Shown here in pieces: positions 406-55,002 of a stretch of 64,000 bases of DNA. A program made the translations under genes and the position numbers. Numbering within the stretch: position 1 is the first letter of the stretch; every line of letters begins with the position of its first letter. This DNA is from Arenicola marina (lineage: Eukaryota; Annelida; Polychaeta; Arenicolidae): assembly GCA_964019135.1 (NCBI GenBank), contig OZ025248.1, forward strand, positions 44,881,670-44,945,669, read 5' to 3'. The notes beneath the pieces were generated by a model. It saw only the letters and a program-made list of their open reading frames with translations. It did not search any database and was not told the DNA's origin.

Positions 406-3400
406 GTATGTCCTACTTTCAAATTTTTCATTTACCCTCTAGAATCTAGTGACTGCGAGGCTTTTTATAATAATTAGCTTTGCTTTGATATTTTGGAATA
501 TGTCCTAGTGCTTGATGGAAAAAAGGGTCAATGGTGAAGTACCGGTAATTTTATGAGCGTAACTAGATTTAAGCTTGCGCAAATAGCGTTGCAGTGTGAT
601 TCAAGATTATTTTTTTTTTTTTTTTTTTTGCAGGAGTGGTGATGGTCTTGGCCGGTTCATTTGAGTTCAGTAAAAACCACAACAACGAGGTAGTGCAAAG
701 ACCTAGCGACAATGAAGATTTGCCTAGGGTGAGTACAGGCTTAAAGCCATTATTCTAGAAGAGATGAAGAGTTCTTTTGTCTGTTGAGGAATTGCTATTT
801 TTTTTAATAGATGTAGATGGCTACCAGACATCTCCATTATAGTGTTTCTTGTGTTATATAGAGCCACGCTTACCACATTTCCACCTTTACCATCTATTGT
901 TACATTTATGTGCTAAAGGAGGACACTTCTTCTTTTCACAAGACTTTTATCCCTATTTGGAAAGTCCAGTAACCGGCACTCTTTGTGGCAACATCTTGAA
1001 TGAAGGACTGTATTATTTATATATCTGATATATATATTCGACCTTTCTTTCTATGACGGCAGTTGATGAAGGACTTGACAAATCTGGGTGAGAAGAACAA
1101 GGAAACTCCTCTGTGCTGGCCATTCAGCGTCAAGGCGCGTGCCCTGATTCACGCCCACTTTTCTAGGCTGGACTCCCTGCCTGACACTCTCAAGCAAGGT
1201 ACACCTTTAACTGAATTCGACGCCTCTTCCGTCATGCTGACTCTCGGGATTTTGCTCAATGCTTTGTGAATGTCCTATCTTTCTATGGATTTTTGAAGAT
1301 CTCCTGTCGTTTATGAAACATGCCGAGTGGCCCCGGAGATATGGCTCCGTCAACTCGTAACCCACTCCCTTTGGCGCAATAATAACTTTGATCTTGAAGG
1401 AACTATCGTTGTAACTTAACGTATCTCTCTTGATACGAGCGAATTAGTCCGCCGCGAAAGGACAAGACATCATAACATCGTTGGATGCAGCTCTGGTGCC
1501 GATCGTTTGATATTTTGTGTTTAATTTCAGACCAGAGCTATATCCTTGCAAAGTGTCCTTACTTGTTGAATGAAATGATCAACATGGCGGCACAGCTGGT
1601 AGCCATGGCTCACTCGGGCAGAGGTAAGCATATTAGATACCCAGTCTACAGATAAATTATATTTTGCATGAAAAATCAACCGTTTATAAAGGTGAAAAAA
1701 AAAAACATTCTATAATCGGTTCTCAAAATTGCTTTTGTAGAATGAAGAAAGAACATATGTGAAATGATATTTCGTGCCAGCTGGTTGGAATCTTCCTGAA
1801 ATGACAGCTTTCACATTTCCATAACACTGTTTTTTTGATGGTTGTCTCTATGTAGGTCACATGCCTCGACTGGAGACGGTGGAGAACATGATGAAGGTCA
1901 GCCAGATGGTCGTACAGGCGCTGTGGGAATCCAAGAGTCCTCTGTTACAGTTACCGCACATCACGGAAGACCTCCTCCGACATTTTGTCACGAAGAGGGT
2001 CAGTGTACCAGTCCAGCCCCGCTGCCCGACGGCGCTTTGAGACGTTCTAGGCCTTCCATGATTAGCCTATATTAATATACCGGTATCCATCAGCGATATG
2101 TGGTAACTAGGCAACGACGTGGCAAGATGAGACATCAGTGCAAATATTCCCTTTGTCGTTCTGCGTGATCAGAAATGTTAATAGCCGGCCTTTGTTTTGC
2201 TGTCGTAGGGGACAGGCCTCAACATCCTTGACGCCGAATGTGCGAACAATATAGCGATAAACACCAAACCACAATAAAACTATTATTGTACTATGTGTGC
2301 TCATGCACGATGTACAGGTCGGGACATACGGAGGTTTGCTCAGTCATTTGTCCTATATTTTATCTCGGTTTAGCAGGTTTGCTTCATTTACCTACAACGG
2401 TTTGTACAGTTGTTTGCAATTAATGTATTCGTCCTATGTCTTACAGAGAAGTATCAAGAGCATAGAACAATTCTTGAGACTCAAGGAAGACGAACGAAGA
2501 TTACTTCTTCGAAGTCTTGGAGACCATGAATATCGTGACGTCATGATTGTATGCCGGAACTTGCCCCACGTTACGCTAAACGTTTGCTCAGAAGGTAACG
2601 ATGAATTGATACACTTGTAGCGTACAAGCGTACACTTGTAGCGTAAGTTAAATTACGTTTATACCTTAGTCGCCTTAAAATTGTCCAATCCTCTTTTAAT
2701 TTTGATTCAAAAAAACAAAGGATATACTTCATTTTATAAATGTCATTATTACGAATGTGAAGCAGACTCCAAAATGTTGGCGCAACATATTTTTGAATTT
2801 GCTTGTTACATAAATTACAAGTGCACATCTAGGCGCACTTACGATACAGACGTTTATTTCTAGATTAAAATTGTAGAAAGATACAAGTTAACGCATATAC
2901 ACAAGCCTAACAAACCATTTATAGAAGCTAATGTAATATACAAGAAATCGATTTTTTTTCATTTCGAACTACGAATAATGAGTATGGAACTATTAGTTCA
3001 TATCGACGAACGACCCTCCGTCCACGCAGCCTATATATGCGTACCTTTGTTGCTCTTGTTTGCCAGTGCTGGATGACGAAGACTCTTCCATCACCGCCGG
3101 TTCCATAGTAACGGTGACGGTCAACCTGGTGCGTATCGCGACGGGGGACCTGTATGGACATGAGGAGGTGGGCGACCACAAGCCGCCGGCCGAGGACGAC
3201 GACCAGCCGGGTGTCGAGGAGGAGGAGGAGGAGACGGAACAGGTGGCCACACATGCGCTGTACTTCATTATCAGGAGGTTACATTGAATGTGTTTATGTG
3301 AACCAGGGAAGATTGCTACCTGAAAGTCCGCTAAAAGCGTGTATCGTAACGCACCTGGCTAACGGATCGTAGAATAACTAAGCTCGATCACATGATACTG

Positions 3401-6400
3401 AATAGTAATAATTCAAAATTATACATTAATTAATAATTATTCATAATTTAATAGTAATAATTATACATTAATACTAATAATAATGCATTAATAGTAATAG
3501 TTATACATTAATACTAATAGTTATACATCAATTAATAGTAATACCGGTAATTATTAATTATACATCAATTAATAATTATAATCGCAGGGAGTTTAGACTG
3601 CTTGAAGCGTCACATTGACCCTTGACCAATTTGTGGCTCTTTACTTTCGTGGTCCGCCTGCGTCGATACGGGTAATGGCGGCATGCAGCTTATCAAGGGT
3701 CAACAAAATTGCCATAAAGTCGTGCGATCTCCCGCTATTGTTAGGCGATTATATAACACAGTCCATATTACATATTATAGTATTACATAACATATTACAG
3801 GCTTTCATATTTAAGGTGCCGTCTTACGTTTGTACATATTGTATTTAGTGATAATCAAACATTGGACGCTATCCCCGCATTGATGTTTTCTATTGTATTT
3901 ATTGCTTCTTACGTAAGTTTTACCCCTAACGCCATATTTGCAGCCGAGCGGGGCTCCAACGCAAAGAAAACTCAAAGTGTGGGAGAAGCAGAAGAAGAAG
4001 AAGGGAGGGAAGACTGCCAAGAGCAAGAAAAAGCAAGCCGTAAAACAGGTTCAGCAGGCCAAGAAACCCGCGTCGCCACAGCAACACGCGGCGGAGTCTA
4101 AAGAGGGCGAGGCGGCGGAAAGTGCCCAAGGAACGCCCAACGGGGTGAGTGTCATGGCCAGTGTGAGAGGGAGGGGAGGGGGAGGCGGCGGGTAGTGCCC
4201 AAGGAACGCCCAACGGGGTGAGTGTCATGGCCAGTGTGAGAGGGAGGGGAGGGGGAGGCGGCGGAAAGTGCCCAAGGAACGCCCAACGCCCGGGGGAGGC
4301 GGCGGGAAGTGCCCAAGGAATGCCCAACGGGGTGAGTGTCATGGCCAGTGAGAGAGGGAGGGGAGGGGGAGGCGGCGGGAAGTGCCCAAGGAATGCCCAA
4401 CGGGGTGAATGTCATGGCCAGTGAGAGAGGGAGGGGAGGGGGAGGCGGCGGGTAGTGCCCAAGGAACGCCCAAAAGGGTGAGTGTCATGGCCAGTGTGAG
4501 AGGGACGGGAGGGGGAGGCGGCGGGAAGTGCCCAAGGAATGCCCAACGGAGTGAGTGTCATGGCCAGTGATAGAGGGAGGGGAGGGGGAGGCGGCGGATA
4601 GTGCCCAAGGAACGCCCAACGGGGTGAGTGCCATGGCCAGTGTGAGAGGGAGGGGAGGCGGCGGGTAGTGCCCAAGGAACGCCCAACGGGGTGAGTGTCA
4701 TGGCCAGTGAGAGAGTGAGGGGAGGGGGAGGCGGCGGGTAGTGCCCAAGGAACGCCCAACGGGGGGAGTGTCATAGCCAGTGTGAGAGGGACGGGAGGGG
4801 GAGGCGGCGGGAAGTGCCCAAGGAATGCCCAACGAGGTGAGTGTCGTGGCCAGTGTGAGAGGGAGGGGAGGCGGCGGGTAGTGCCCAAGGAACGCCCAAC
4901 GGGGTGAGTGTCATGGCCAGTGTGAGAGGGACGGGAGGGGGAGGCGGCGGGAAGTGCCCAAGGAATGCCCAACGGGGTGAGTGTCATGGCCATTGTCATA
5001 GGGAGGGGAGGGGGAGGCAGCGGAGAGTGCCCAAGGAACGCCCAGCGGGGTGAGTGTCGTGGCCAGTGTGAGAGGGACGGGAGGCGGCGAGTAGTGCCCA
5101 AGGAATGCCCAACGGGGTGAGTGTCATGGCCATTGTCATAGGGAGGGGAGGGGGAGGCAGCGGAGAGTGCCCAAGGAACGCCTGGCGGGGTGAGTGTCGT
5201 GGCCAGTGTGAGAGGGAGGGGGAGGCCGCGGAGTGTGCCCAAGGAATGCCCAACGGCGTGAGTGTCATGGCCAGTGTGATAGGGAGGGGAGGGGGAGGCG
5301 GCGGAGTGTACCCAACGGGGTGAGCGTCATGGCCAGTGTGATAGGGAGTGGGGGGGGGAGGCGGCGGGTAGTGCCCAAGAAATGCCCAACAGGGTGAGTG
5401 TCATGGCCAGTGAGAGAGGGAGGGGAGGGGGAGGCGCCGGGTAGTGCCCAAGGAACGCCCAACGGGGTGAGTGTCATGGCCAGTGTGATAGGGAGGGGAG
5501 AGGGAGGCGGCGGGTAGTGCCCAAGGAACGCCCAACGGGGTGAGTGTCATGGCCAGTGAGAGAGTGAGGGGAGGGGGAGGCGGCGGGTAGTGCCCAAGGA
5601 ACGCCCAACGGGGTGAGTGTCATGGCCAGTGAGAGAGGGAGGGGAGGGGGAGGCGGCGGGTAGTGCCCAAGGAACGCCCAACGGGGTGAGTGTCATGGCC
5701 AGTGAGAGAGGGAGAGGAGGGGGAGGCGGCGGGTAGTGCCCAAGGAACGCCCAAGGAACGCCCAACGGGGTGAGTGTCGTGGTCAGTGTGAGAGATAGGG
5801 GAGGCGGCGGGTAGTGCCTAAGGAACGCCCAACGGGGTGAGTGTCATGGCCAGTGTGAGAGGGAGGGGAGGGGGAGGCGGCGGGTAGTGCCCAATGAACG
5901 CCCAGCGGGGTGAGCGTCATGGCCAGTGTGAGAGGGAGGGGAGGGGGAGGCGGCGGGTAGTGCCCAAGGAACGCCCAACGGGGTGAGTGTCATGGCCAGT
6001 GTGAGAGGGACGGGAGGGGGAGGCGGCGGGAAGTGCCCAAGGAATGCCCAACGGGGTGAGTGTCATGGCCATTGTCATAGGGAGGGGAGGGGGAGGCGGC
6101 GGAGAGTGCCCAAGGAACGCCCAGCGGGGTGAGTGTCGTGGCCAGTGTGAGAGGGACGGGAGGCGGCGGGTAGTGCCCAAGGAATGCCCAACGGGGTGAG
6201 TGTCATGGCCAGTGTGATAGGGAGGGGAGGGGGAGGCGGCCGAGAGTGCCCAAGGAACGCCCAGCGGGGTGAGTGTCATGGCCAGTGTGAGAGGGAGGGG
6301 GAGGCCGCGGAGTGTGCCCAAGGAATGCCCAACGGCGTGAGTGTCATGGCCAGTGTGATAGGGAGGGGAGGGGGAGGCGGCGGAGTGTACCCAACGGGGT

Positions 6401-9400
6401 GAGCGTCATGGCCAGTGTGATAGGGAGGGGAGGGGGAGGCGGCGGGTAGTGCCCAAGGAATGCCCAACGGGGTGAGTGTCATGGCCAGTGTGAGAGGGAC
6501 GGGAGGGGGAGGCGCCGGGTAGTGCCCAAGGAACGCCCAGCGGGGTGAGTGTCGTGGCCAGTGTGAGAGGGAGGGGGAGGCGGCGGAGAGTGCCCAAGGA
6601 ACGCCCAGCGGGGTGAGTGTCATGGCCAGTGTGATAGGGAGGGGAGGGGGAGGCGGCGGAGTGTACCCTACGGGGTGAGCGTCATGGCCAGTGTGATAGG
6701 GAGGGGAGGGGGAGGCAACGGGGTGAGTGTCATGGCCAGTGTGAGAGGGAGGGGAGGGGGAGGCGGCGGGTAGTGCCCAAGGAATGCCCAACGGGGTGAG
6801 TGTCATGGCCAGTGTGAGAGGGACGAGAGGGGGAGGCGGCGGGAAATGCCTAAGGAATGCCCAACGGGGTGAGTGTCATGGCCAGTGAGAGAGGGAGGGG
6901 AGGGGGAGGCGCCGGGTAGTGCCCAAGGAACGCCCAACGGGGTGAGTGTCATGGCCAGTGTGAGAGGGAGGGGAGGGGGAGGCGGCGGGTAGTGCCCAAG
7001 GAACGCCCAACGGGGTGAGTGTCATGGCCAGTGTGAGAGGGAGGGGAGGGGGAGGCGGCGGGTAGTGCCCAAGGAATGCCCAACGGGGTGAGTGTCATGG
7101 CCAGTGAGAGAGGGAGGGGAGGGGGAGGCGCCGGGTAGTGCCCAAGAAATGCCCAACGGGGTGAGTGTCATGGCCAGTGTGATAGGGAGGGGAGAGGGAG
7201 GCGGCGGGTAGTGCCCAAGGAACGCCCAACGGGGTGAGTGTCATGGCCAGTGAGAGACTGAGGGGAGGGGGAGGCGGCGGGTAGTGCCCAAGGAACGCCC
7301 AACGGGGTGAGTGTCATAGCCAGTGTGAGAGGGAGGGGAGAGGGAGGCGGCGGGTAGTGCTCAAGGAACGCCCAACGGGGTGAGTGTCATGGCCAGTGTG
7401 AGAGGGAGGGGAGGGGGAGGCGGCGAGTAGTGCCCAAGGAACGCCCAACGGGGTGAGTGTCATGGCCAGTGTGAGAGGGACGGGAGGGGGAGGCGGCGGG
7501 AAGTGCCCAAGGAACGCCCAACGGGGTGAGTGTCGTGGCCAGTGTGAGAGGGAGGGGGAGGCGGCGGAGAGTGCCCAAGCAACGCCCAGCGGGGTGAGTG
7601 TCATGGCCAGTGTGATAGGGAGGGGAGGGGGAGGCGGCGGAGTGTACCCTACGGGGTGAGCGTCATGGCCAGTGTGATAGGGAGGGGAGGGGGAGGCGGC
7701 GGGTAGTGCCCAAGGAACGCCCAACGGGGTGAGTGTCATGGCCAGTGTGAGAGGGAGGGGAGGGGGAGGCGGCGGGTAGTGCCCAAGGAATGCCCAACGG
7801 GGTGAGTGTCATGGCCAGTGTGAGAGGGACGAGAGGGGGAGACGGCCGGAAGTGCCCAAGGAATGCCCAACGGGGTGAGTGTCATGGCCAGTGAGAGAGG
7901 GAGGGAAGGGGGAGGCGCCGGGTAGTGCCCAAGGAACGCCCAACGGGGTGAGTGTCATGGACAGTGTGAGAGGGAGGGGAGGGGGAGGCGGCGGGTAGTG
8001 CCCAAGGAACGCCCAACGGGGTGAGTGTCATGGCCAGTGTGAGAGGGAGGGCAGGGGGAGGCGGCGGGTAGTGCCCAAGGAATGCCCAAAGGGGTGAGTG
8101 TCATGGCCAGTGTGAGAGGGACGAGAGGGGGAGGCGGCGGGAAGTGCCCAAGGAATGCCCAACGGGGTGAGTGTCATGGCCAGTGAGAGAGGGAGGGGAG
8201 GGGGAGGCGCCGGGTAGTGCCCAAGGAATGCCCAACGGGGTGAGTGTCATGGCCAGTGTGATAGGGAGGGGAGAGGGAGGCGGCGGGTAGTGCCCAAGGA
8301 ACGCCCAACGGGGTGAGTGTCATGGCCAGTGTGAGAGGGACGGGAGAGGGAGGCGGCGGGTAGTGCCCAAGGAACGCCCAACGGGGTGAGTGTCATGGCC
8401 AGTGAGAGAGTGAGGGGAGGGGGAGGCGGCGAGTAGTGCCCAAGGAACGCCCAACGGGGTGAGTGTCATAGCCAGTGTGAGAGGGACGGGAGGGGGAGGC
8501 GCCGGGTAGTGCCCAAGGAACGCCCAACGGGGTGAGTGTCATAGCCAGTGTGAGAGGGACGGGAGGGGGAGGCGCCGGGTAGTGCCCAAGGAACGCCCAG
8601 CGGGGTGAGTATCGTGGCCAGTGTGAGAGGGAGGGGAGGGGGAGGCGGCGGGAAGTGCCCAAGGAACGCCCAGCGGGGTGAGTGTCATGGCCAGTGTGAG
8701 AGGGAGGGGAGGGGGAGGCGGCGGGTAGTGCCCAAGGAACGCCCAGCGGGGTGAGTGTCGTGGCCAGTGTGAGAGGGAGGGGAGGCGGCGGGTAGTGCCC
8801 AAGGAACGCCCAACGGGGTGAGTGTCATGGCCAGTGAGAGAGGGAGGGGAGGGGGAGGCGGCGGGTAGTGCTCAAGGAATGCCCAACGGGGTGAGTGTCA
8901 TGGCCAGTGTGAGAGGGACGGGAGGGGGAGGCGCCGGGTAGTGCCCAAGGAACGCCCAGCGGGGTGAGTGTCATGGCCAGTGAGAGAGGGAGGGGAGGGG
9001 GAGGCGGCGGGTAGTGCTCAAGGAATGCCCAACGGGGTGAGTGTCATGGCCAGTGTGAGAGGGAGGGGAGGGGGAGGCGGCGGGAGTGCCCAAGGAACGC
9101 CCAGCGGGGTGAGTGTCATGGCCAGTGTGAGAGGGACGGGAGGGGGAGGCGGCAGGAAGTGCCCAAGGAACGCCCAGCGGGGTGAGTGTCGTGGCCAGTG
9201 TGAGAGGGAGGGGAGGCGGCGGGTAGTGCCCAAGGAACGCCCAACGGGGTGAGTGTCATGGCCAGTGTGAGAGGGATGGGAGGGGGAGGCGGCAGGAAGT
9301 GCCCAAGGAACGCCCAGCGGGGTGAGTGTCATGGCCAGTGAGAGAGGGAGGGGAGGGGGAGGCGGCGGGTAGTGCTCAAGGAATGCCCAACGGGGTGAGT

Positions 9401-12400
9401 GTCATGGCCAGTGTGAGAGGGAGGGGAGGGGGAGGCGGCGGGAGTGCCCAAGGAACGCCCAGCGGGGTGAGTGTCATGGCCAGTGAGAGAGGGAGGGGAG
9501 GGGGAGGCGGCGGGTAGTGCTCAAGGAATGCCCAACGGGGTGAGTGTCATGGCCAGTGTGATAGGGAGGGGAGGGGGAGGCGGCGGGAGTGCCCAAGGAA
9601 CGCCCAGCGGGGTGAGTGTCATGGCCAGTGTGAGAGGGATGGGAGGGGGAGGCGGCAGGAAGTGCCCAAGGAACGCCCAGCGGGGTGAGTGTCATGGCCA
9701 GTGAGAGAGGGAGGGGAGGGGGAGGCGGCGGGTAGTGCTCAAGGAATGCCCAACGGGGTGAGTGTCATGGCCAGTGTGAGAGGGAGGGGAGGGGGAGGCG
9801 GCGGGAGTGCCCAAGGAACGCCCAGCGGGGTGAGTGTCATGGCCAGTGTGAGAGGGAGGGGAGGGGGAGGCGGCGGGTAGTGCCCAAGGAACGCCCAACG
9901 GGGTGAGTGTCATGGCCAGTGTGAGAGGGACGGGAGGGGGAGGCGGCAGGAAGTGCCCAAGGAACGCCCAACGGGGTGAGTGTCATGGCCAGTGTGAGAG
10001 GGATGGGAGGGGGAGGCGGCGGGTAGTGCCCAATGAACGCCCAGCGGGGTGAGTGTCATGGCCAGTGTGAGGGAGGGGAGGGGGAGGCGGCGGGTAGTGC
10101 CCAATGAACGCCCAGCGGGGTGAGTGTCATGGCCAGTGTGAGGGAGGGGAGGGGGAGGCGGCGGGTAGTGCCCAAGGAACGCCCAACGGGGTGAGTGTCA
10201 TGGCCAGTGTGAGAGGGATGGGAGGGGGAGGCGGCGGGTAGTGCCCAAGGAACGCCCAACGGGGTGAGTGTCATGGCCAGTGTGAGAGGGAGGGGAGGCG
10301 GCGGGTAGTGCCCAAGGAACGCCCAACGGGGTGAGTGTCATGGCCAGTGTGAGAGGGATGGGAGGGGGAGGCGGCGGGTAGTGCCCAATGAACGCCCAGC
10401 GGGGTGAGTGTCATGGCCAGTGTGAGGGAGGGGAGGGGGAGGCGGCGGGTAGTGCCCAAGGAATGCCCAGCGGGGTGAGTGTCGTGGCCAGTGTGAGAGG
10501 GAGGGGAGGCGGCGGGTAGTGCCCAAGGAACGCCCAACGGGGTGAGTGTCATGGCCAGTGTGATAGGGAGGGGAGGGGGAGGCGGCGGAGAGTGCCCAAG
10601 GAACGCCCAGCGGGGTGAGTGTCGTGGCCACTGTGAGAGGGAGGGGAGGGAGAGGCGGCGGGTAGTGCCCAAGGAATGCCCAACGGGGTGAGTGTCATGG
10701 CCAGTGTGATAGGGAGGGGAGGGGGAGGCGGCGGAGTGTGCCCAAGGAATGCCCAACGGCGTGAGTGGCATGGCCAGCATCATGATGGGGATGGGGAGGT
10801 GGGGATAGTGCTGAGGTAACGCCTGCGCTCTGATATTTAGACCGGGTGTGGAGGGGTTGCTGGTAGGGTACCGCCGAACTGCTTAAGTGTTACGGAAGTG
10901 CGAATGTGCCGAGGGAACGCCAACCGCGGGGGGAGGGGGGTGGGAGGAGGTGAGTGCTACAGCTGCCTTTACCAGATTAAGACAATGATGACAACGATGC
11001 GGTTTTCTCTCGCCAGATGGTTCAGAAGGTGGAGCGGAAGTCGAAGCGGCGTAACGACGAGGCGGGGTCGACAGACGACGAGGCGGGCACGGGCAGCGAG
11101 GAGGAGGGGGAGGCCGAGGCGTCCCCGGGGGGAGCCGAGCGGGTCGATGACGATGACGACGACAGCTGGGAGAAGTTCCAGAAGCAGTCCAAGAAGGACG
11201 GGATGTTGGAGACCAAGTCCAAGGAGACTCATGTCGTCCACTCACCTTATTTCCCCAGTGTAAGAACGACGCCATATTGTCGTCATATTGATGGTGGGGG
11301 TTACTATGAATCTGGAACAATAACGTTACTTCTCCTTGTGTCCATTCAATGTGTAGTTAATTGTAACGTGTAGATTGCTCTATCCGTTGAAAGTATCATC
11401 AATGTAGAATAGACGTCGTCCGAGTGTCATAAGATGGACCTTCCGATATGCTTATGTCATCTGTTTCGTGTTCAGTCCTGCATCTGGAGTGGACACTTAA
11501 CTTGGGCCTTCATAACACTGGGTGCGGGTGTTTTTCCGACAGGAGAAATACGAGTGGTGGTGGCTGTATGTGGCCGACAAGAAGAGCCGCTTGTTAATCA
11601 CAGCCCCGGTGCAGGTGTGCAGTCTACGGACAGAAGAACAGGTACGTCACCACGATTTATTCCCTTAGTTCTTTCTGTATTCACGTTTTACCACTTAAAG
11701 CAATATATTCTGTAATTTTTGTTGTACCAACCTCTTCTCCATGTCAAATTAATATATTCTGTCTTGAATTTAAATCCTGAAAGCCCGTGGCTATCCGGAG
11801 AGAGCGAATTTGTTTTCCGGAGCAGAAGAGTTGGTGGCCGGCTTTATATTCCTACGCGCCTGTTCGCTGTTCGGTTGGGTCTTCGGAAAACTTCTTCGCG
11901 GCGTAAATTGCGAAGTTTTCCGCAGTATTTCGCATGATTTCGCTGGTATTCTGCAAGTATTCCGCGTTTTATTAAGGGCCCTTCGGTATGCTGTGTGATG
12001 TTGACCGCGGCTCGCCAGGATGTCCGCGCGCGATATGAATAAACCGCGTAGTTTTATGTTAAAATTGTTGTTTTTCAGACTCAGAGATAAATATTATATG
12101 CATCACAATTTTAAGATACTTTTAGTCTTGATTGTAAAGTGTAAAAAATCTAAAATGCCGCATGTAAGTATATTGCTTTAAACACTGCCGTAAACTGTCA
12201 TGTGGCTCAAAGACATGTCTAAATTTAAGACTCATCGTCTTGTTCATCTATATAGGAACATGTATAGACGCAATATTATAATCCCATACGGCACATGCTC
12301 ACACTGACGGGCTTTTTCTTTTCTTCGCAGGTTGAGATGAAATTTTCCGCGCCGAAGAAGCCTGGCATATACACGTATACTGTGATACTGAGGTCGGACT

Positions 12401-13005: not shown

Positions 13006-13020
13006 GTCAACCTCGATTTG

Positions 13021-13274
13021 TCTGACGTCATCGCGGTGTAATGTACATCACTGTATTATAATACGACGCTGTCTGACGTCATCGCGTTTAATGTACATCA
13101 CTGTATTATAATACGACGCTGTCTGACGTCATCGCGGTGTAATGTACATCACTGTATTATAATACGACGCTGTCTGACGTCATCGCGGTGTGATGTACAT
13201 CACTGTATTATAATACGACGCTGTCTGACGTCATCGCGGTGTAATGTAAATCACTGTATTATAATACGACACTG
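13021..13274 (+). repeat. Five-unit 51-bp tandem repeat with CRE palindromes in the SEC63 3' UTR
   Basis: The units start at about 13021, 13072, 13122, 13173 and 13224, with period 50-51. Each holds the palindrome TGACGTCA followed by a segment with GTACATCACTGTATTATAATA. They begin 16 bases after the SEC63 stop codon, so they belong to its 3' UTR. Confidence 0.93.
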
Positions 13275-16677: not shown

Positions 16678-19286
16678 CTATAAACAAAAATTACATATCT
16701 TTGTGTGCAGTCAATCACCGTATACATGGACAATATGTTGTTCACATCGAACTCCTCATTAAATAATACCAAAAGTCATAATTATAGATATATTTCATAG
16801 CTGGCTTACTTGGCGTTCAGGCAGATCATCTGTGTTCCGGATTTCAAATGTTTCATATGTTGTTATTTGCAACCAATTATTACTTATGAAGCGCTATACT
16901 CACCGCCGCCTGCGGAGGGTACCCGCCAGCTGTATTGTTCATGGCTTTCTGAGGCTCTAGAACCCTCATCCCACCTCCATTGCCACCGCCGCCACCACCA
17001 CCTCCCCCAGGTCTGTTCTTGCTATTTGTGAAGTCTATTAGAAAACCTTCGGCGGCCGCCACTTCTGCGTCCATGGCTGAGTCACTGGTATCGGGGGTGT
17101 ATGGTACGTTGAAGGTTCGAGCTATTTCTTCCAGGTATTTTTCCAACAACTGTTTTGGTGGCGCTTGTACACCCAGTTTATGCATAAGTTTCTCATTAAC
17201 ATTATTTAACTCATTACTGCGACAACTTTGGGCAAACTCTTTCCCATATTTAGCACTAAACTGATCAGATATGACTTTTAGCTCTTGGCATTCTGATTGA
17301 AGTCGCGGGGTGGCCCAAATGATGCTCGCAATAGGTTCTTCAAGTCCTTCATCCAGCTCCCTGTTAAAAAAGCGACAATAATGTTTAAAAGTCACTGACA
17401 AATGTCATCTTCTTGCTAGTGACTCATCACTAGGTTACCAGCGTACGCCGCAAAGATATTTGAATTGTTTACTGTCATCATAAATATTTATATTACTAAT
17501 TGATCTTAATAGACATAAACTTTCATAACATTACTTTTATATTAGTTATCTGAACTAATTATTCTTTTAATCTATGTAATGATTTACCGTCTTTTACAAT
17601 TAAATTTTTTACAAGTTATACCTATAAACCAAAATAAGTAGAAGTGATAAATAAAAGCTGTAATATACCATAAACTGCGTTCTGAAGCCACATACATATT
17701 ACATATTGTCTCACTGATATTTAAACCAGTCAAACGTCAGTCTGTTAAACTAATGTTCAGAGTCTTTGATGCAGCTCTGGCTCCTTGTTTCCACTTATTC
17801 ATGATAGCATCACCATTCAGTCAGTTACACAAGGCTGCTCTGCTGTTTATTGTTTCTCCAGCTCTGTGCCATTGAATAGCATTGACATACTGCTCCGAAG
17901 TTAAAATGATTCGCTTGCATCCTTTGGCTATTATGTATGCGAATACATAGACAGCCCTACTGATATCAAAAGTACAGGAAAGGTGTTTGTTCAAGGTTCA
18001 CACCACGCCACACAGTGAGTGAACCAAGGAATTTAATATGTGCTGGTAGTACAACAAGTCAACTGTATATGTTCTTTTATACAAGTGATCCCTTGAGAGC
18101 ATATAATCTCACCCCCTCCTCCCACACTGATGGTGTGAGGCTGGCACTGTCAAGTAGGGTATCAAGTCAGTACAGTAAGGCAGTTTGGTACCAGCTATGG
18201 CTCGGACTCAAACCATAACCTCTCGCATTCCAGGATGTTTGGAATGAAACGTCAAATGAATAGATGCGTATGCATTTTGTCTCTGTCTAGGGGCTCTTGT
18301 TGCGACGGTCTGACCATCACTCATGGGGACCGGTAAGTCACACATAGGCAATAACATATTCCTGTGCAAAGTCCTAAGCCTTCCAGTCCCTGACTCCCGT
18401 CAACGTAAACATTGTACTCTACCTTCTCTTTTTCACCCTCATCCTTGACCCCAAGAATCAAGTCAATGGGTAGATGTAGTTGTCTCCCGTACATGAGGAA
18501 GAGTAATGCTTATATGCTACCCGTGGAGAAATGGAATGGACATACTCTGCACAGGAGTGAAAACTTAGACCAAAGAGATATAAGTAAAGCGGAGTTAAGA
18601 GGCTAGGGATAGAATGAGACATTGATGACAGATACAAGAAAGAAAGGGATAGGGGCTGCTTTAGTGAAATCGACCACCACTGACCGCCACAAGAAAGATA
18701 CTTATGAAATCTCAACTGGTGAAAAGAGGCCTGCAAAGAACGCTACTGTAAAGCTCACAAATCACCCCCACATGCATTTTTACGCCTTCTACAGTTATAC
18801 AAATACAATGGCCTGATTGTGATGTCTTAGTTCGGTTATACACTCAAATACAAGGCATAGTTTGACAGTACCAGTGTTCTTTATTTTCCGACATAACCTC
18901 TCATTCTTCCCTGGTCACAACTTTGTTCAGAGCCCTGTAAGTTTGGACCCCCCCCTTTTCAAATTCCTGACCCCGGCCCTCCATGCTTACCAGTGTTGGC
19001 CCCCAGTGTTCACTTACTTTGTGGTTTGTATCAGGCCCATGCGGGCCAGCACCAGGTCACAATACATCTCAATGACTTCCATAGCTTCTACTTGGTAGTC
19101 TTCACGGACAATGTGCTCAACTCTGATCCTGGCTCTTTCTGTTTTGCCTGTGGCTAAATAGTCTGCGATCTCTTTTCTTGCCTTCACCGCCAGTTCTGTT
19201 TTCTTCTTTTCCAGCAATTTCAGGCGGTTAATAGCCAACCGCAAGTTGGTGGCGAGTTTCTGATATTTAGGCCCACTGCTGAACAT
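16411..19286 (-). CDS. IST1: IST1 homolog (ESCRT-III associated factor), 3 exons
   Basis: IST1 is a cytosolic ESCRT-III-like protein that recruits and regulates VPS4 in multivesicular body sorting and cytokinetic abscission. The coding exons on the minus strand are 19286-19018, 17360-16904 and 16677-16411, giving 330 codons plus TGA. All splice phases agree (donors GTAAGT and GTGAGT; acceptors TTTTTAACAG and TTTATAG). The N-terminal IST1 helical core is obvious: NLRLAINRLKLLEKKKTELA, ARKEIADYL, RARIRVEHIVREDY, WATPRLQSE, LMHKLGVQAPPK. It is followed by a Gly/Pro-rich linker. The C-terminus carries FLPELPSVP (MIM2-like) and DFDDLSRRFEELKKRK (MIM1-like). The length is close to the ~365 residues of the human protein. 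It is convergent with SEC63. Confidence 0.96.
16904..17360 (-). CDS. IST1: IST1 exon 2
   Basis: It starts after TTTAACAG with the base completing Lys, then ELDEGLEEPIASIIWATPRL. It covers the rest of the IST1 domain (KYGKEFAQSCRSNELNNVNE, LMHKLGVQAPPKQLLEKYL) and a linker with nine Gly in a row, ending before GTGAGT (16903). Confidence 0.95.
17361..19017 (-). other. IST1: IST1 intron 1
   Basis: This is a 1.66-kb intron with good donor and acceptor. I find no supported gene or repeat inside except short C runs near 18950. Confidence 0.8.
19018..19286 (-). CDS. IST1: IST1 exon 1 (start codon)
   Basis: The ATG is at 19286-19284 and opens MFSSGPKYQKLATNLRLAIN, aligning residue for residue with the family N-terminus. 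It ends with two bases of a split Lys codon before GTAAGTG (19017-19011). Confidence 0.95.
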
Positions 19287-20579
19287 GATGGGTAGGTCGA
19301 GTATATCCTTCTAATTTTGGTATATATCTATACTGGTGTCTTTAACGGTTTCTTGTAGGGCGATAAAATAGATATAGACTCCGTTTCACGATCACACAGC
19401 CATGACGAATGTTATGAGTTATTTTGGGATATAACCGACACGCGACTCTGTACCTCGGCCACAAATGACGTCAAATACCAGCCTGAAACTCGAATGACGA
19501 CTGCACTATTTTACCACATTTATGAACTGGGTGCCTTATGACTGCACGTAACCTATTTTTCGTACTGCCTCTCAAAACATCGCATATGGCCCCATTTCAT
19601 CCATAGACACGCTTAATATGTCCTATAGGTACAACCTACAAGGGCGAGCGGAAATATATTCCGATTGAAAAAGTTGTACTACTCTAGACTAAAGTACTGA
19701 ATAAACTGGGTAGGCCTATATAGAAAAAAATATGGCAAGTGTTTTAAATTTCTAGTGCAGTTCATCGATAATCGCTCATATATATCCATTCATAATGCAT
19801 AACTCAACAACATTGATAGTCGGAAAGGTAATAACATTTGGCAGTCTAAATGTGTAAGTGAGGTGGATATACATAAACTGTACGACAAAGCAAATGGAAA
19901 TGTAGGCATGTATGTTTAATTCAGAAAACAAGACCGATTGAAGTGATAAGTGATGAAATACTGACTACGGTCCTATTATTATTAATAAAATAAAACCGGC
20001 ATGTAACAACTACAGGGTAAGCCAATATAGTATCCAAAGGGTCAATAGCAGATTGTGTGATACTACGTCTCATATGTGAACAATATGGAATTAATAATTT
20101 AAGTGTATTAATTTACACTGAATAGTTACATTATCAATGGTTATATCCCTATACTTGAACCATCAAGATAATATTCAACTTCAACCAAATTATACTAAAT
20201 GGACGAAACCTTAATTGAAAGTAAGACAAAAGGTAAATGTCTGTATTTTCATGCAGGATAGACATATGTATATGACGTTTTCTAGGGTCTCACATCCTTC
20301 ACATGGTAGAAGTAACCCTATATGGCTATGACTTGGTGGCATATATTTAAGACTCCAATTTGCACTTGACCCACTGTATTGATATTGTCATTTAATCACT
20401 AAGATATGGTATGATACCTGAATGTAAGCACCACTTAACAACATGGGTATGTGGCCCTGCATGATTACCAGATATGTGTCAAATTTGAATCAGGCTAAAA
20501 TGGTAATTTTGTCAGAATTTTTTATCCGTAAAACAAATATCAAAGTATTAGGGGTATGGAAGGGGTAAATGGCGACACG
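19287..20579. other. IST1 upstream region
   Basis: This is likely 5' UTR or promoter DNA for IST1. It includes a TGACGTCA near 19466 and a GC-richer patch around 19380-19470. Nothing coding is visible in the remaining AT-rich kilobase. Confidence 0.5.
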
Positions 20580-21433
20580 CGAACTAATCGCGACCCGCCA
20601 ATTCCTGCTCCTACACAAATCGTGGCCCGCCGATTCCTGCTCCTGAACGAATCTTGACCCGCCGATTCCTGCTCTTGAACGAATCGCTACCCGTCGATTC
20701 CGGCTCCTGAACTAATCGCGACCCGCCGATTCCTGCTCCTGAACGAATCGCTACCCGCCGATTCCTGCTCCTGAACAAATCGTGACCCGCCGAGTCCTGT
20801 TTCTTAACAAATTGCGACCCGACGATTCCTGCTCCTAAACGAATCTTGACCCGCCGATTCCTGCTCCTGGACAAATCGTGACCCGCCGATTCCTGCTCCT
20901 GGACAAATCGTGACCCGCCGATTCCTGCTCCTGAACGAATCACGACCTGCCAATTCCTGCTCCTGAACGAATCGTGACCCGCCGATTCCTGCTCCTGAAC
21001 GAATCTTGACCGCTAATTCCTGTTCCTGAACTAATCGCAAACCGCCGATTCCTGCTCATGAACTAATCGTGACCCGCGGATTCCTGTTCCTGAACGAAAA
21101 ATCGTGACCCACTGATTCGTGCTCCTGAACTAATCGTGACACGACGATTCCTGCTCCAGAACAAATCGTGACCCGCCGATTCCTGCTCCAGAACAAATCG
21201 TGACCCGCCGATTCCTGCTCCAGAACAAATCGTGACCCGCCGATTCCTGCTCATAAACGAATCTTGACCTGCCAATTCCTGCTCATAAACGAATCGCGAC
21301 CCGCCGAGTCCTGTTCCTTAACAAATCGTGACCCGACGATTTCTGTTCCTTAAGAAATCGTGACCCGACGATTCCTGCTCCTGAACAAATCATGACCCGC
21401 CTATTCCTGCTTCTGAACCAATCGCGACCCGCC
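20580..21433. repeat. 32-bp minisatellite (~27 units)
   Basis: Tandem units of GAATCGTGACCCGCCGATTC + CTGCTCCTGAAC vary at a few positions. Because 32 is not a multiple of three, the minus strand gives repetitive Arg/Gly/Gln ORFs that are artefacts. Confidence 0.95.
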
Positions 21434-52839: not shown

Positions 52840-55002
52840 GATGACCGATCCATCCTCGCCAGTATTTGAGACGATAAAAACTAACTTAAAAACTTACAAC
52901 AGGATCCTTAAGAGAAATATCTACCTTGCCAAACGTGTCCAAAAACAAAAAACTGCTTCCCAAATATATCCGTATCCATAATGAGGAAAACTCAGATCGC
53001 TTGGTCATTTGCGAAAAATTTAACTCCTTCTTTTTACAAGCGGGTCCAAATCTAGTTAAAAACTAATCAACGTCAATCAAGTTTTATGACTATATGAAAT
53101 CAAAAACGTTTAAATTTTCTCTTGTATCTGAGAGGACCGTTACAGAAGTTCTTGATAACTTAAAACCTAAAGGTATTTGTGGCGTTGACTCAATCTCTGT
53201 TAACCTTCTTAAGAAAATTAAGAATGAGATAGTGGAACCCCTTACTCTATTGATTAACCAAACTTTGTCGACAGGTATCTTTTCTAAAAAATTAAAAGTA
53301 GCAAAGGTAGTGCCAGTTTATAAAAAGGGTGACATAAATGATCTTAACAACTACCACCCTATATCTCTCTTACCGGCAATATCAAAGGTATTCGAAAAGA
53401 TTGTCGCCACTCAACTTTATAAGTATTTTGAAGTCAATAAACTATGCGCAGCCAGTCAGTACGGCTTTCGAACTAAGCACTCCACTGAACTCGCTATTCT
53501 TGAAGTGGTGGACCGCACAATAAGTTCCATGGACAGGAATGAATCTCCTGTAAATATTTACCTGGACCTATCAAAAGCGTTCGATACCATAGACCATGGT
53601 ATTCTCATAAATAAACTTATTATGGAGTAAATGGAGTTGCACTCGACCTATTCAAGAACTACCTTTCGGAGAGAAAACAGTTTGTCAGTCTTGATGATGT
53701 AACATCTTATCCTTGTGATGTCACAACTGGCGTCCCACAGGGATCTATCCTTGGGCCATTGCTCTTTATCATTTATATTAACGACATAGAGTGTGCTAGT
53801 GCTTTTTTAAAATTCATAATATATGCAGATGATACCACTCTTTTTTTCTCCTTAACTCCCTCCACAAGCGACTCCTCATTCTCTGTTATTAATGCGGAAC
53901 TGGCTAAAATACATGAATGGTTGTCTGCTAATAAACTTGTGTTAAACGTACAGAAGTCGAAATTTATTATTTTCCATACCGCACAACGACGGATTGTGCC
54001 TCCTACCATTAGAATTGATAATGTGGTACTTAAATGTGTCGACGAATTTAACTTTCTTGGCATTACCATCCATAAACATCTGAAATGGCACAGCCATGTG
54101 GATACAATTTCAAAGAAGATCTCCAAGGCCATTGGCATTATGTCTAGACTAAAACAAATAGTACCACAACATGTATTGCAGATTTTATATAATTCGCTTA
54201 TCTTACCTCACTTAACATATGGGATTCTATTTCGGGGATATGAAGATCAAAGACTGCTTCACCTGCAAAAAAAAGCCCTCCGAATAATAACACTAAGTAA
54301 ATATAATGCACATACTGAACCATTATTTAAAGAACTCCGTTGCCTGAAGTTGCCTGATATCCACAGGATCCAGACATTAAAATTTTATTATAAACTAAAG
54401 AAGGGTATTCTGCCTCACTACTTTTCTGAACTACCGCTTTACCAACACTTTCAAGTAGATGATCATGACACCAGATATAAATCCTATGTATACACTACAC
54501 GAATCAGCCATATCTTTGCTCAAAAATGTATTCGACACAGTCTGGTCTATGCAATAAACAATGAACCTGCTTGCATCCTTTCCAAAATAGACAGTCATAG
54601 CCTCGATGGATTTTCTAAGTATGTTAAAGTTCTTACTCTCGATAAATATAAATATATGTGTTCCATCCAAGATTGTTACATTTGTCTTAATTAACTCGCT
54701 GCACAAGTGTTGTATTTGTTCATGTGTATGTATGTGTGTCTGCGCTTTCAGTTGTCGCCTTTGTATACGTGTAAGTGTGGGGGGGATAAGGGTTGTAAAG
54801 CTCTCTTGCCATAATCATTATATTGTATATTAATTGACGCATGTACGTTCTTGTCTTAAGTAATACTATGATTTTTGTGGGTGGCCCACGCGACAGCGAC
54901 AATATGTCTTAGCGTGGGTCTCCTAGCCTGATAAGTTTTATGAATGTATTTATGTATGATCGAGTTGTTATTTTGGTTGAATAAACGCAATTGAATCTAA
55001 AA
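52840..55002 (+). mobile_element. 5'-truncated LINE (Jockey/CR1-like group)
   Basis: It is inserted in the sequence CACCTG|CATGCAAAG, which is intact at 48829, 60985 and 61950. It encodes the 3' part of a reverse transcriptase and ends with TTGAATAAACGCAATTGAAT, a typical non-LTR tail. The endonuclease part is missing. It splits module M2 of the second family. Confidence 0.9.
53094..54694 (+). pseudogene. LINE reverse transcriptase fragment with frameshift
   Basis: First frame (53094-53630): VVPVYKKGDINDLNNYHPIS and the RT A motif YLDLSKAFDTIDH. A frameshift near 53625 moves the reading into another frame, which holds GVPQGSILGPLLFIIYIND (motif B) and YADDTTLFF (motif C, catalytic Asp pair). 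It runs to a stop at 54692-54694 through a thumb/C-terminal region with LGITIHKHLKWHSHVDTI. Catalytic residues are present, but the shift and truncation make it inactive. Confidence 0.9.

Follow-up and report, generated by a model that had tools for sequence, protein, structure and literature searches.

What does the splicing apparatus do with an exon whose own end and 5' splice site are repeated, nearly unchanged, throughout the intron that follows it? The question is raised by a stretch of 64,000 nucleotides from the annelid Arenicola marina (assembly GCA_964019135.1, contig OZ025248.1, positions 44,881,670 to 44,945,669 of the forward strand; hereafter the window), in which a minisatellite begins inside an exon of the SEC63 gene and fills most of the next intron. 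We conclude that this array is very probably a mirage minisatellite, i.e. a tandem repeat spanning an exon-intron boundary of the kind described in amphioxus (PMC3087553, PMC3902484), which is tolerated by its host gene and spliced from its first unit.

The gene had been named SEC63 by a reading of the sequence alone (the sequence-only reading), and the homology searches bear this out: the joined exons carry the Sec63 Brl domain (PF02889, E 5e-18 in Pfam) and match 674 proteins, many of the best 120 of which are named SEC63. The top match among those listed, P0001, is a protein of 769 residues from a 3266-nt contig, with 91% identity at 95% query cover. We take P0001 to be the product of a spliced RNA because its reading frame occupies most of a contig that is too short for the introns seen here. 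With upstream sequence added to the window, its matches along the gene span -5671 to 13002. The predicted exon at 3944-4144 (forward strand), whose last ~40 bases are unit 1 of the array, is delimited by its frame and splice sites and by the match of P0001 residues 510-578 to 3941-4147 (91%), while the following exon at 11017-11259 (forward strand) is delimited by its frame and its own match to P0001. The frame is compatible with an exon end at 4144, with phase 0 on either side of the 4144/11017 junction, and P0001 is continuous over this predicted junction, reading EGEAAGSAQGTPNG before it and VVPKVERKSKRR after it (VVPKVERK past the junction); both observations agree with the exon end that had been proposed. 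At one site the window exon encodes glutamate where P0001 has glycine. The TPNG motif is present in 6 of the best 120 SEC63 matches, namely P0001, Owenia, Ridgeia, Lamellibrachia, Capitella and P0005. In a SEC63 tree built by a quick method from 35 rows (the window and 34 proteins chosen by hand from the 120 listed), the window and P0001 join a group containing Paralvinella inside the annelids (Shimodaira-Hasegawa-like approximate likelihood ratio test support 99), and P0005 clusters with Capitella. This placement suggests a polychaete of terebellid-like affinity. Downstream in the same gene, five copies of a 51-bp unit at 13019-13274 start 14 bases past the SEC63 stop codon and presumably sit in the 3' untranslated region.

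The array itself has a 73-bp consensus and occupies 4105-10777 on the forward strand. Tandem Repeats Finder (TRF) reports period-73 rows at 4103-4288 and 4292-10777, and an anchor scan on the donor core over 4105-11016 counts 93 donor-bearing units with donors from 4145 to 10761, in agreement with the location and the count of about 93 units given by the sequence-only reading. Each unit comprises ~40 exon-like bases, a 5' splice site and ~27 further intron bases, and the spacing is exactly 73 bp in 64 of the 92 intervals. Unit 1 overlies the final 40 bases of the exon (37 of 40 match the consensus); the remaining units lie between 4145 and 10777 in the intron, with exons flanking both sides, and the array accounts for ~6.6 kb of the 6.9-kb intron. 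The nine donor bases from -3 to +6 (GGG/GTGAGT) are identical in 79 of the 93 units, the true site counted; the GTGAGT hexamer is kept in 86, and the GT is lost in one unit (4764). The ~90 near-identical decoys claimed earlier thus correspond to 92 downstream donor sites. An extra, donor-less partial unit is marked by a 114-bp spacing before 4332 and a 38-base match at 4251-4288. The intron tail at 10778-11016 (forward strand) may hold decayed units at 10795-10965, a weak signal: of 200 shuffles, 1 scores as high for the region overall, and 5 and 13 do so when its two parts are taken separately. Then 67 nt separate a lone GTGAGT at 10950 from the 3' splice site. The 53 G-quadruplex-like motifs within the array may favour its instability. 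Neither AATAAA nor ATTAAA occurs in the array, and the RNA fold at the exon-array boundary is not unusually stable (z 1.42; 184 of 200 shuffles reach the same stability). Two further candidates were set aside: a higher-order structure, where TRF prefers a 146-bp dimer but unit similarity is flat at lags 1 to 15 (0.84-0.87 versus 0.85 overall), and a local homogenisation of unit 1, whose nearest units are 41, 51 and 64 rather than its neighbours.

An in-frame TAG at 4193-4195 (forward strand) precedes all 92 decoys, and messages from any downstream donor would include it; the premature stop previously ascribed to decoy use therefore stands. Donor strength was computed as pairing with the U1 5' end, in the sequence that we take it to have. 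By this measure, among ten SEC63 donors compared, the true donor at 4145 ranks first, and that of the preceding exon at 3243 (CAG/GTGGCC) is weak (-7.3 versus -12.3 for the array donors). What sets the first donor apart is chiefly its position: it is the nearest to the 3' splice site of the exon and the first to be transcribed. Because position more than strength distinguishes it, we infer that the first donor is used by exon definition. The history of the locus could then have run as follows. A tandem duplication would have captured the last ~40 nt of the SEC63 exon and the 5' splice site, with ~33 nt of intron in all, and slippage or unequal exchange would have carried the array to 93 units. 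Unit 1 would remain the working copy, with exon definition acting between the 3' splice site at 3943 and the first donor, and the intron would be removed in one step to 11017, the array apparently holding no good 3' splice site. Splicing errors would be non-productive because later units bring in the in-frame stop, presumably leading to nonsense-mediated decay, and the array would be tolerated as a neutral feature.

Several points weigh against this reading. In computed U1 pairing, 77 of the 92 decoys tie with the true donor and one is better, leaving 14 that are weaker. The decoy donor hexamer shows just seven substitutions in its six columns over the 92 units, which could mean that decoys are kept by selection, though it ranks fifth among 68 six-column windows and others are as low. 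The lack of a good 3' splice site in the array is supported by its 202 YAG trinucleotides, none of which reaches 60% pyrimidine over the preceding 17 bases, as against 24 of 132 others nearby; but three of the 11 true SEC63 acceptors fail the same test. P0001 carries the regular 4144/11017 junction, but its species may lack the array. Lastly, an origin in place is made probable by the search of the genome for the unit, in which all 94 matches found in the 867 Mb fall inside the SEC63 intron, but that search skipped very common words, making its counts lower bounds.

The units also bear on the history of the exon end. The exon-end peptide of P0001 is matched at 31 places in the array (E <= 0.001), six of which span 14 or 15 residues unchanged, and the exon form GCGGAAAG was located just twice, at 4115 in the exon itself and at 4261 in the partial unit that lacks a donor. 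Because of this restriction and the glutamate/glycine difference, the array may retain an older or alternative version of the SEC63 exon end.

Judged from genomic sequence, the SEC63 array is not alone: predicted exons of histidine ammonia-lyase (HAL), HDAC6 and two consecutive exons of HUWE1 share its structure, and a Lustrin-like exon shows a weaker form of it. All of these lie towards the same end of a single chromosome (C1). In 20 ten-kb samples of C1, TRF assigns 68,819 of 200,000 bases (34%) to 50 minisatellite arrays; three of the samples are almost entirely array and contribute ~30 of the 69 kb. Donor arrays are thus in the minority, since GTRAGT reaches half of the units in none of the 50 arrays of this 200-kb sample. 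Pattern searches give 148,247 matches for three GTGAGT at 24-54 spacing, where the reversed control gives 120,014; the corresponding figures are 2,860 against 928 for CAGGTGAGT triples (~3-fold) and 1,895 against 334 for AAGGTGAGT triples (~6-fold), all of these being counts of triples of sites and not of arrays, which a few long arrays can dominate. The AAGGTGAGT search lists five places on C1.

The first 2.4 Mb of C1 supplied a list of nine GTGAGT arrays, one of which (L031) was picked first by eye and the other eight inspected afterwards. Two begin at a coding exon, and by eye no coding exon ends at the start of the other seven. In L031 (C1:1752400-1757400) a Lustrin-like exon (Pfam 2.7e-5, below the curated cut-off) is followed at local positions 1961-2420 by 34-bp units with 13 CAG/GTGAGT donors, sharing only 3 exon nt. 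In L037 (C1:1937600-1939600) a HAL exon (Pfam 5e-7, NCBIfam 7e-11, PDB 3.7e-9) is followed at local positions 1393-1860 by 10.2 copies of a 46-bp unit sharing the last 21 exon nt and the donor; the next HAL exon, continuing V-SENKVLCHPS, is present in L040. For CAGGTGAGT, four arrays were listed within the initial 22.5 Mb of the chromosome, and three of them likewise start at an exon end, that of the Lustrin-like gene, HDAC6 or HUWE1. The HDAC6 zinc-finger exon (L043, C1:2205450-2206050, reverse strand; HDAC6 in PDB at E 1.8e-10, Pfam zf-UBP only at 0.037) precedes an array of 50-bp units that repeat the final 22 nt and the donor of this exon. The two HUWE1 exons (L042 and L046, C1:1562900-1569600, reverse strand) each have an array of their own end: the first has 53-bp units with 33 exon nt shared and donor units over 1563974-1569228, and the second 78-bp units with 72 exon nt shared and the donor GTACGT. 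The first HUWE1 exon found no match on its own in the searches; joined to the next exon it gives a gapless alignment to human HUWE1 (E 1e-19), together with weaker matches to unrelated repeat proteins. The fourth array, of 44-bp units (L044 and L045, C1:22499000-22500900, reverse strand), has CAG/GTGAGT in many units and is array throughout, with no exon reached. Elsewhere, in the region C1:1685000-1688600 (L035, reverse strand), an array stops just short, by a few bases, of the acceptor of a HUWE1 exon (PDB E 3e-20) and so lies beside a 3' splice site and not a donor, and a AAGGTGAGT array of 41-bp units extends for ~5.4 kb at C1:331021-336484 (reverse strand). Exon-end donor boundaries might be recurrent seeds of minisatellites in this genome, and many of its genes might have intron arrays grown from their own exon ends; we hold this tentatively, at slightly under even chances, the sample being small and the search pattern itself favouring donors.

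The claim that no described gene has an intron amplified from its own splice donor does not survive comparison with the literature, as the amphioxus mirages (PMC3087553, PMC3902484) and the IFI6 minisatellite (PMC4526556) are precedents. The amphioxus cases comprise Adh3 and the globins BflGb6 and BflGb9 (PMC3087553), with TnC and PGBD5 added by a second paper (PMC3902484), and they are reported without interference in splicing. The SEC63 array resembles them in spanning an exon-intron boundary, in units that contain an exon end and a splice signal, and in having its extra copies in the intron; it differs in lying in an annelid and in its 93 units, compared with the 6 and 3 given for two BflGb6 haplotypes (PMC3087553). 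Variation in length among alleles or cells is counted as a further trait of mirages. In human IFI6 (6-16, G1P3), the units act as 5' splice sites and yield several mRNAs (PMC4526556). Both genes thus place units capable of acting as 5' splice sites at the end of an exon, but downstream units are used in IFI6, whereas in SEC63 any of them would lead to a stop. The IFI6 unit is also shorter than that of SEC63. Among annelids, earthworm metallothionein genes have minisatellites in intron 1 (PMC12783039), comparable to SEC63 as large intronic arrays; inclusion of an exon end or donor, as in SEC63, is not stated in the available part of that paper. Mirages under that name were not found outside lancelets in a literature search whose coverage excluded most subscription papers. 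The SEC63 array accordingly belongs to a class already described; its size and its host are exceptional, and the genome that carries it has others like it.

These comparisons also bear on what else the array might be. It could be a regulatory device: the decoys would titrate the U1 small nuclear ribonucleoprotein or divert splicing into unproductive forms, and the level of SEC63 would be set by the length of the array. The many decoys equal to the true donor in pairing, the stop into which every one of them runs and the few substitutions in the donor columns all fit this. Yet amphioxus mirages are said not to disturb regular splicing (PMC3087553, PMC3902484), and like arrays in unrelated genes, together with the 34% minisatellite share of the sample, point to general repeat growth. 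We therefore regard regulation by decoys as improbable, and the suggestion in the sequence-only reading that array length tunes SEC63 splicing as an idea only, which we do not favour. It is more doubtful still that several of the 5'-most units serve as alternative donors in the manner of IFI6: units 1 and 2 do share identical nine donor bases, but use of unit 2 would already truncate the protein, and P0001 displays the unit-1 junction only. That the array was inflated or misjoined during assembly is highly unlikely. Tandem arrays are prone to such errors, but 80 of the 93 units are distinct in sequence and no exact internal repeat exceeds 241 bp, so that long reads would be able to resolve it; moreover, the array sits on a 77-Mb contig, and the same kind of array recurs at other genes.

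Elsewhere in the window, a 32-bp array of 26.6 copies at 20581-21433 is directly followed by an inverted repeat, around AGAAAAATAACG.TCG/GTTATTTTTCT, that is perhaps a small element. Open frames at 16880-19310 on the reverse strand are, we assume, IST1-like, and two adjoining ones at 53067-54694 presumably resemble the reverse transcriptase of a long interspersed nuclear element.

The mirage minisatellite at SEC63, in all likelihood a tolerated one, extends the phenomenon from lancelets to an annelid, with ~93 units here and several cases in one genome. Arrays of this kind show a direct route of intron growth, and, where a gene offers tens of near-identical 5' splice sites in succession, one can test whether the choice of donor depends on site strength, on how far a site lies from the 3' splice site upstream, or on the order of transcription. 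If exon-end donors do prove to be recurrent seeds, introns could in general be enlarged in this way, and the genes concerned would provide a naturally occurring test of the choice that the spliceosome makes among up to ~100 equal donors.

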